Notes under the pieces: model-generated | What the model was told of the DNA's origin: nothing | The model's database searches: none | What the model saw: the letters and a program-made list of their open reading frames with translations, nothing else | From: an uncultured Bacteroidales bacterium | GTDB lineage: Bacteria; Bacteroidota; Bacteroidia; Bacteroidales; UBA932 | DNA: 42,338 bases | NCBI GenBank assembly: GCA_900319375.1 | Contig: ONOI01000019.1 | Coordinates: 1-42,338, forward strand | Direction: 5' to 3' | Made by a program: the position numbers and the translations under genes | Shown: in pieces, positions 30,630 through 32,432 of the stretch | Layout of the letters: the number at the start of each line of letters is the position of its first letter | Position numbering within the stretch: position 1 is the stretch's first letter

Positions 30630-30701
30630 GCTGGGTTCGTATAACGGTTAGTACTCGAGATTCTCAATCTCGCAATAGGAGTTCGATTCTCCTACCCAGT
30701 A
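30630..30701 (+). tRNA. tRNA-Glu (anticodon CUC)
   Basis: A 72-base cloverleaf. The acceptor GCTGGGT pairs with ACCCAGT (one G-U pair at the end), and the discriminator is A. The anticodon stem is CGAGA/TCTCG with loop TTCTCAA, giving anticodon CTC at 30663-30665, which reads GAG. The T arm is AGGAG-TTCGATT-CTCCT. CCA is not encoded (CAA follows), as is usual in Bacteroidetes. It stands alone with its own promoter and terminator. Confidence 0.95.
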
Positions 30702-30706
30702 CAAAG

Positions 30707-30735: not shown

Positions 30736-32418
30736 TTACAGCGGATCTACGTCAAAAGTATAGAGAGCGCCGTACTGCAGCTTGAGCTCTTTTTTGCGCT
30801 CGGCGAGGCTGGAATCGCGCTGGAGTACCTCACGGCGCACTATCGAAACCTTATCGCGCATATCCACCAGTCTGGTGTAAGGCGGGAGCTTATACTTCTT
30901 TCGCTCAGAGAGCAACTCGGCGATAGCGGCATCCTGAGCAGCACGGTTTCCGGCCAGGGCGCGGTATACCGGATGAGAAGCGGCGCCGCATTGGACTATG
31001 AGCCTGTCGGTATGATTGCGTATGGAGCTGAGCATCTGCAGCGCCTTTTCATCGGCCCTGAAATCAGTCCTGTCGAACAGGGCATCAGCCTGGAGCACAA
31101 GGGTCAGGTCGCTGTGGCAACCGCTCTTTCTGGCGGCGGGAGCGCTCAGAAGCTGGGGATCACGTCCGGGCAGCACCTCGCGAAGCTCGGCCAGAGCGGC
31201 ATCTTCGGTCTGATAGCAGCGCACTATGGTCACCAGCGCGCCATCCGGCAGCGCCGCGATCTCTTCCAGCGCCTTGCGCGAGTAGTTTCCTACCATTCCG
31301 CGCTTATGCCTCTCGGCCGGGATGTCTATTATCTCCACCGCGGGCAGAATCTCGCTTACGGTAACCAACTCATACTTGCCGCTCAGGCAGTTGCTGAGGC
31401 TTTCGAGCGAAGGGCAGGCTGACCCGAGGATGAGGCGGGCGCCATGGATACGTGCGAGCATGGCGGCCACATCACGTCCGTTGTACAGCGGCGCCGTCTC
31501 GTTCTGCTTCAGCGAGGAGTCCTGTTCTTCGTCCACTATCACCAGCCCGAGCTTGCGCCATGGCAGAAAAACCGACGAACGAACGCCGATTACCGCTACC
31601 GGCCGTGAAGCGTCACGCACGGCCGCAAGCACTTCCCTCTTCTCTCTTGGGCTGGTGGTGGCCCCGCAAAACAGCAGGCTCTCCTTAAGTGGGCGTCCAA
31701 GCATATCGCGAAGGTTGAAGCCGAAATCGGTCTCAGGCTCGAGGATTAAGACGTCGCGGCCCGAAGCGAGGGTACGGCGAATTTCGTCCAGATAATACGG
31801 GGCGCGGTCCGTCCCACGCAACAGGATTGGTTTTTCGCCGAAGTCTATCGCCTCCTGGAAGGCCTTGGGCGAAGGAGCAACTGTCAGTTCGGCAAGATCC
31901 CGACGTAGCAGCTCGAGCTGCCCGGCGATCCGGTCACGCTCCTCTTGCAGCCGCTCGGTAATGTCCTGGCGATGCTTGCGCGAGAGCGCGGCCTCCTTGG
32001 CAGCAAGGCGGGACTCCAGCATAGGTATCTTGGTTTCAAGGGCAAGGCGCTGCCTTTCAATGCTTTGGGTAGCGCGGGCTTCGAGTTTGGACGCGAGTTT
32101 TTCAGAGCGAAGTTTACTAATGGGGTACGCCGCCTTGTAGACCTCGCCGAGAGTACACATATAATAGGACGAGACAAATTCCCAGAGCTTCAATTCCTCG
32201 GGGGTAATATCGGCAAGGCCTGTATCTGCTACCTTGACGGGAAGGACAGTCTCTACATCGGGCTCGCCTCCAATACTGACCACAACTCCCACATATGTTC
32301 TGCGGGCGAGAACCACCTCTACCCTCTGACCTATATGAACCTCTTCCGCAGTACTGTACCACGGATTGAAGTCCAGTTTCAGGGGGACGCAGACCTGTAT
32401 GTATTGCTTAGCCGGCAT
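30736..32418 (-). CDS. PriA-like primosomal protein lacking helicase motifs
   Basis: A 560-residue homologue of PriA (normally about 800 in Bacteroidetes). The 3'-DNA-binding domain is intact (KQYIQVCVPLKLDFNPWYST, GQRVEVVLARRTYVGVV). After a Glu/Arg-rich coiled coil (about 112-178) the helicase core follows, but its catalytic motifs are gone. The Walker A site reads ILLRGTDRAPYY with no GKT, the DEEH box is DEEQ (296-299), and SATPS is SACPS. The eight zinc-binding cysteines are missing. The region of motif VI (normally QVAGRAGR) reads QMLSSIRNHTDR. Non-catalytic landmarks remain, such as IGVRSSVFLPWRKLGLVIV and LPPYTRLV. The start is ATG 32418, which lies 6 bases after a -7 box. It probably keeps a structural role, if any; it is unlikely to unwind DNA. 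Confidence 0.85.
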   Translation of the reverse strand: MPAKQYIQVCVPLKLDFNPWYSTAEEVHIGQRVEVVLARRTYVGVVVSIGGEPDVETVLPVKVADTGLADITPEELKLWEFVSSYYMCTLGEVYKAAYPISKLRSEKLASKLEARATQSIERQRLALETKIPMLESRLAAKEAALSRKHRQDITERLQEERDRIAGQLELLRRDLAELTVAPSPKAFQEAIDFGEKPILLRGTDRAPYYLDEIRRTLASGRDVLILEPETDFGFNLRDMLGRPLKESLLFCGATTSPREKREVLAAVRDASRPVAVIGVRSSVFLPWRKLGLVIVDEEQDSSLKQNETAPLYNGRDVAAMLARIHGARLILGSACPSLESLSNCLSGKYELVTVSEILPAVEIIDIPAERHKRGMVGNYSRKALEEIAALPDGALVTIVRCYQTEDAALAELREVLPGRDPQLLSAPAARKSGCHSDLTLVLQADALFDRTDFRADEKALQMLSSIRNHTDRLIVQCGAASHPVYRALAGNRAAQDAAIAELLSERKKYKLPPYTRLVDMRDKVSIVRREVLQRDSSLAERKKELKLQYGALYTFDVDPL

Positions 32419-32424
32419 ATAAAG

Positions 32425-32432
32425 CAAAGATA
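32425..32432 (-). promoter_or_regulatory. -7 box for the priA-like gene (leaderless)
   Basis: TATCTTTG on the minus strand ends 6 bases before the ATG at 32418, giving an essentially leaderless message. Confidence 0.5.

Follow-up and report, generated by a model that had tools for sequence, protein, structure and literature searches.

The 42,338-nucleotide stretch of DNA analysed here (the window; contig ONOI01000019.1 of an uncultured Bacteroidales bacterium, assembly GCA_900319375.1) encodes a reduced PriA which is the sole PriA found in its cell, and which has probably been cut down to an ATPase-dead, passive restart platform. The reduction itself is real, selected and recurrent, the same state being shared by many species of the gut genus Candidatus Cryptobacteroides (Bacteroidales), a name taken here from one relative, Candidatus Cryptobacteroides avistercoris. 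Joint loss of motor and zinc domain recurring inside one genus appears to be new, and no report of a zinc-less PriA, or of a PriA from Cryptobacteroides, was found among the titles and abstract openings listed by searches of open-licence papers; a pseudohelicase PriA as such is already known.

The gene lies on the minus strand (30736-32418) as a single open frame running from a probable ATG at 32418 to a stop at 30736, and its 560 residues confirm the continuous frame described in an earlier, sequence-only reading; an in-frame TTG at 32427, three codons upstream of the ATG, would give 563. Its neighbours are an S9 peptidase, an M20 peptidase, rpmE, phosphoglucomutase and NamZ. The rpmE gene (L31, 30248-30499) adjoins priA, a pairing also present in E. 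coli K-12, and a tRNA-Glu(ctc) sits between the two at 30630-30702. By homology the product is a PriA orthologue, the likeness running along its whole length in profiles, chain matches and the family-profile alignment. The sole Pfam domain above cut-off is the PriA 3'BD (PF17764, 53 bits vs 22.7), which bears out the earlier claim that the PriA DNA-binding domain is kept and was also matched in 8/8 PriA relatives scanned. NCBIfam PriA models match the window protein below their cut-offs (best 2e-49), and the equivalog cut-off of TIGR00595 is missed (141 bits vs 230.35, E-value 4.5e-41). Five solved chains were matched by sequence, all of them PriA, and as several PriA models and five PriA chains match, the resemblance is not due to chance. 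Most of Klebsiella PriA (chain residues 20-713) is covered by the family profile, large gaps opening at the zinc region and after it. Two features of SF2 helicases, the Walker A GK[T/S] and motif VI, are absent from the window PriA, as is the eight-cysteine zinc region (CRR), and the exchange of Walker lysine for arginine that marks a pseudohelicase is present at Arg205.

From the amino terminus, the 3'BD (residues about 8-99; 32122-32397) is followed by two long helices (residues 100-145 and 151-179 in the AlphaFold2 model; 31882-32121) where the winged-helix region was. The sequence-only reading had taken these as an inserted coiled coil, suggestive of selection; they are instead a replacement, variable and absent in the close relative L066, and for that last reason their standing as a conserved new part was also rejected. 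The stretch from 3'BD to Walker A measures 111 residues here vs a median of 212 in 15 outgroup rows, with medians of 103 in the zinc-bearing PriAs of the genus, where it is thus shortened already, and 85 in 150 zinc-less ones. RecA-like lobe 1 (HD1; residues about 195-355; 31354-31836) lacks a standard ATP site: RGTDRAPYY occupies the place of Walker A, with no GKT, as first reported, and the codon of Arg205 (31804-31806) stands at the lysine position. Motif II (31522-31533) is DEEQ and is intact. It had been read as a lesion of DEEH, a view undone by its presence in 7/15 complete outgroup PriAs (a share biased by a scan that used VIVDEEQD among its patterns) and in 4/82 zinc-bearing PriAs of the genus, 73 of which have DEEH; the phrase 'stripped of every helicase motif' was accordingly an overstatement. 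The remaining losses first listed do hold. Motif III is SACPS in place of SATPS (31408-31422), none of the eight zinc cysteines is found in the alignment, and motif V and the GRxGR motif VI (the earlier GRAGR) are both missing from a lobe 2 (HD2) reduced to a remnant (30994-31341). The stretch from SATPS to DFRA is 120 residues long vs a median of 215 in zinc-bearing PriAs of the genus. Within that remnant the DFRADEKALQ segment is kept (31036-31065), as is LPPYTRL (30868-30888), which opens a shortened C-terminal domain; from LPPYTRL onward the tail has 50 residues vs an outgroup median of 100, and it ends in a conserved DVDPL (30739-30753).

A predicted fold agrees with this outline. AlphaFold2, given the window protein and 37 relatives, returned a model with pLDDT 89.7 and pTM 0.82, and PriA accounts for each of the first nine Foldseek matches in the PDB, with 8fak_H the best (TM 0.71 on the query). 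Of the two RecA folds whose survival the earlier reading had left to structure prediction, the first is kept and the second persists as a remnant. By sequence or by model, then, the 3'BD, the lobe 1 fold, the lobe 2 remnant and a short C-terminal domain persist. The losses are those of the zinc domain, the winged-helix region, the lysine of the ATP site and motifs V and VI.

Named relatives come from Bacteroidales metagenome-assembled genomes (MAGs) sampled from red deer, roe deer, yak, water buffalo, goat and horse. Those closest to the window protein, at 92, 79, 64 and (L066, over its best segment) 81% identity, all carry the same reduced PriA, and its neighbours are common to them wholly or in part. 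A strain-specific or assembly defect, with a full-length PriA at the same locus in relatives, is therefore not what was found: those at 79-92% identity share neighbours and are equally reduced. It is true that the genus sequences all derive from assemblies, nearly all of them MAGs or of uncultured origin, but an artefact of assembly or binning is scarcely credible when 151 distinct proteins, taken from several hosts and projects, share one architecture, and in view of the shared neighbours and the purifying selection described below. Zinc-bearing PriAs occur in lineages of the genus other than that of the nearest relatives.

With the window protein as query, a match was obtained in 358/400 genomes of the genus; among the 150 with completeness of 90% or more and contamination of 5% or less, 144 were matched. 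From 282 frames, merging those with identical last 300 residues left 245, and dropping 12 that were short or truncated left 233 distinct, near-complete PriAs for alignment. Of these 151 are zinc-less and 82 zinc-bearing, a ratio that is not a prevalence, since most of the proteins were taken from the upper end of ranked lists. The zinc-less frames span 485-804 residues; ten of the 233, 2 of them zinc-less and 8 zinc-bearing, extend past the 5' limit of the sequence retrieved. One of the 82 zinc-bearing rows has 7/8 cysteines, a likely contaminant (L342, from G369) is counted among them, and L081, a row without a partner among the genus genomes, is assumed to belong to the genus. GK[T/S], motif V and motif VI are kept in 82/82 zinc-bearing PriAs; among the 151 zinc-less ones, GK[T/S] occurs in 7, arginine stands at the Walker lysine column in 122, and the patterns used detect SATPS in 20, motif V in 1 and motif VI in 3. 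Motif VI often reads FRGRCGR in the zinc-bearing PriAs of the genus (e.g. L016, L156) vs the VSGRAGR usual in other Bacteroidales rows. Two intermediates, L285 and L304, have GKT and no zinc cysteines, and L304, in which no zinc ribbon is found, exceeds the cut-offs of both the DEAD and the Helicase_C model. Outside the genus but in the same order, 15/16 genomes were matched, with frames of at least 771 residues, and the eight that were read have GKT and eight cysteines; the longest outgroup frame, in L095 (Alistipes sp. UBA928), extends over 1053 residues stop to stop. MAGs with a short PriA are slightly smaller than those with a zinc-bearing one (median 2.3 vs 2.45 Mb, 40 each, Mann-Whitney p 0.0007, uncorrected for relatedness and completeness).

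Coding-sequence comparison places the window PriA under purifying selection. Nei-Gojobori dN/dS against L063, L064, L066 and L065 is 0.22, 0.10, 0.13 and 0.19, with dS near saturation for the last three, and 24 columns are invariant among 23 aligned zinc-less PriAs. The gene could alternatively be a pseudogene or one in decay, to which stepwise motif loss across the genus and fast evolution would be suited, as would the 6/150 high-quality genomes in which the short query found no PriA and the family profile gave only weak lobe 1 matches in other frames. Such decay is improbable, however, in view of the dN/dS values (0.10-0.22), the invariant columns and the 151 frames of 485-804 residues, and an absence of 4% is obtainable from MAG incompleteness alone; selection rather than decay, as the sequence-only reading proposed, is what the data favour. 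Loss of PriA in the 42 unmatched genomes (20 named by the window-protein search, 22 chosen for a weak best match) was rejected for the same reason, the six among the 150 being compatible with incompleteness; across all 42 the family profile found only weak partial lobe 1 matches in frames of 654-1098 residues, or none. Divergence within the gene is uneven. Against L063 (92% identical; L063:6001-7683) dS is 1.18 over the first 105 codons (the 3'BD, 32104-32418) and 0.03-0.30 over the remainder, which suggests a mosaic produced by homologous recombination inside priA. Identity to L064 is 79% for PriA, 77-100% for neighbouring genes and 94% for phosphoglucomutase.

Whether this PriA works alone bears directly on its interpretation. 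The source MAG comprises 1.91 Mb in 80 contigs and is 93.7% complete, and a TIGR00595 search of it found no second PriA, returning only this gene and weaker matches elsewhere. Each of the latter was considered and dismissed: one reads as UvrB, one on C44 sits inside the RecG gene, and one on C69 lies in a 1083-residue frame of Mfd size that scores below the cut-off of the RecG model. The PriA zinc-ribbon model PF18319 gave a best E-value of 0.11 in the MAG and nothing at 1e-3, with 8/14 control genomes positive. Neither a separate full PriA nor a split-off zinc domain was thus found in the assembled part of the MAG, a result that is not absolute. Of the two possibilities raised at the outset, the organism's only PriA or a second, repurposed paralogue, the searches favour the former, no other PriA having been found. 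A full PriA might conceivably exist in the organism and be missing from a MAG of 93.7% completeness in 80 contigs, leaving the window gene as a second copy, and two MAGs of the genus do hold two PriA-like genes. One, G369 (contamination 5), has a zinc-bearing form (L342 / L273, on C77, its frame open at the contig start) beside a zinc-less one (L040, on C74); the other, G249 (contamination 7), has two different zinc-less PriAs, L044 (C60) and L197 (C34), in frames of 541 and 652 residues. The zinc-bearing form of G369 is itself probably contamination, as it branches outside the genus's other PriAs and lies at a contig end in a MAG with contamination of 5. Where every candidate was scored, no genome of the genus shows two complete copies, and a hidden full PriA is accordingly very improbable. 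G002 and G020 carry PriA pieces on two contigs. The wider searches of the genus scored only 2-3 candidates per genome and say less on copy number.

A PriA tree, of the kind suggested as a check in the sequence-only reading, was built from 118 rows on shared columns (82/151 zinc-less, 29/82 zinc-bearing, 7/15 outgroup), by a quick method with SH-aLRT only and with the Walker A columns omitted. It calls for at least two changes of the zinc state, and for seven of the GK state. An independent RecG tree with ultrafast bootstrap and SH-aLRT, which is not a species tree, holds 58 of the 60 genes fetched from 80 genomes (G060 and G144, whose PriA class was unread, are omitted), and needs 4 changes of zinc state, 4-5 over bootstrap trees and 3 without G053. 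Its 23 zinc-bearing rows comprise 15 read from DNA and 8, including G053, classed by an unbroken match to a 697-residue query. One of the four changes may be a regain by gene transfer, in G053, where PriA is classed from that match. The trees indicate parallel loss of the zinc domain on two occasions as a minimum, three or four being the probable number. As PriAs with GKT and without zinc exist, and 0/82 zinc-bearing ones lack GK[T/S], the simplest reading suggests that zinc was lost first and Walker A later; the full order of loss probably began with the winged helix, continued with the zinc domain and ended with the Walker lysine.

What might such a protein do? From established knowledge of SF2 helicases, a protein that lacks the ATP-site lysine and the coupling motifs, motif VI among them, is very unlikely to unwind DNA, and the window PriA would be incapable of ATP hydrolysis or unwinding, as the 'non-unwinding loader platform' of the earlier reading supposed. 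In E. coli, PriA mutants lacking ATPase and helicase are described as keeping primosome assembly on model DNA in strains that live (PMC4504706), and PriA with an inactivated ATP site as still loading DnaB in vitro (PMC10175261). DnaB and DciA are both present in the source MAG, and a model search found no match to PriC there, a combination favouring a protein that reads forks passively and brings in DnaB together with DciA. The window PriA is thus probably a platform that helps to reload DnaB. Its 3'BD and helicase-like body would together recognise a fork that has been abandoned, and it would recruit or hold DnaB, with DciA helping the loading, which would take place on lagging strands already single-stranded or made so by a different enzyme (RecG is present). 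An association of short PriA with missing DciA or RecG was considered and rejected. DciA was matched in 40/40 zinc-less and 39/40 zinc-bearing genomes (over cut-off in 40 and 38), and RecG was over cut-off in 40/40 and 38/40 respectively, the 40 zinc-bearing genomes having been classed from DNA (20), by listed matches (17) or by E-value (3; G060, G122, G144). With DciA and RecG alike in both classes, the presence of neither explains the loss of zinc domain or motor.

Certain observations count against a loading platform. Firstly, the E. coli zinc region is reported to dock PriB and to be required for DnaB loading (PMC10175261), and to shift position so that PriA can encircle the lagging strand (PMC13377028), so that its loss here could mean that loading has been lost. 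Secondly, the fast evolution of this PriA (79% identity to L064) also fits relaxed constraint. The protein may instead have been repurposed, binding branched DNA without loading DnaB, whether by shielding forks or competing with fork enzymes, with restart left to DnaA/DciA or recombination. The missing PriB-docking and loading region, the shortened C-terminal domain and the variable helices in place of the winged-helix region would all suit such a change of role. It is nevertheless unlikely: the segments under constraint come from PriA and keep its order, Pfam shows no new domain, and the MAG has no PriC match to take over. A further point against the platform is that Asp17 of the E. coli 3'BD, which PMC4129139 describes as crucial to recognising the 3' end, is absent from the window PriA, though it is absent from the 7 outgroup rows tested as well; in this comparison, which also took in the SSB-tail pocket, rows differ, and the E. 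coli numbering is one off from that of Klebsiella.

Several other PriAs bear comparison with this one. The orthologue of D. radiodurans (Lopper et al. 2015) likewise has arginine for the Walker A lysine, matches motifs I and II poorly, and is described as having no measurable ATPase and negligible unwinding yet binding forks and DnaB (PMC4504706). A figure legend of the same source (Fig 1) marks the Cys-rich region on PriAs of 19 species. Beyond the features of the D. radiodurans protein, the window PriA has also lost motifs V and VI, the winged-helix and the zinc region, and within a single genus the change is met repeatedly. Two other members of the Deinococcus-Thermus phylum, Thermus composti and Deinobacterium chartae, have a PriA zinc ribbon over cut-off. 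E. coli PriA (b3935, 732 residues; 8fak, 6dcr), the closest fold, has the remaining parts in the same order but, unlike the window PriA, possesses the winged helix, Walker A, motifs V-VI, the zinc region and the partners PriB and DnaT (PMC10175261). PriAs of Bipolaricaulota (L126, L127, L142), of an uncultured-bacterium MAG (L134) and of Omnitrophota (L135) resemble the window protein in lacking the Walker A GK[T/S] but keep all eight zinc cysteine columns; these are further apparent pseudohelicases, in the reverse of the genus pattern. The window PriA fits general PriA models (2e-49) better than the actinobacterial NCBIfam PRK14873 models (1e-22). Actinobacterial PriA is presumed to be helicase-inactive. 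It is short, as is the window PriA, and has been called 'smaller and very divergent' (PMC1193525). Zinc-less actinobacterial PriAs may exist: no zinc ribbon was found at 1e-3 in Corynebacterium glutamicum, but none was found in Caulobacter vibrioides either.

The zinc region and the motor of PriA are treated as its working parts, and a large lineage of this genus lacks both, while sister species keep a complete motor and zinc domain, giving a graded series in which both are kept, zinc is lost and the ATP site kept, or both are lost. More tentatively, and doubtful as a whole, a minimal restart factor independent of ATP and zinc may have arisen several times in one genus: deletion of the zinc region would have removed a loading gate together with half of the motor, the second, after which decay would have left a favoured arginine in the ATP site, and the 3'BD and dead motor body would reload DnaB directly with DciA. 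Were this true, PriA-type restart would need neither unwinding nor a zinc gate. Whatever the outcome, the natural proteins of the graded series make it possible to test which parts of PriA are needed to reload the replicative helicase in cells that show no PriC and in which loading probably falls to DciA.
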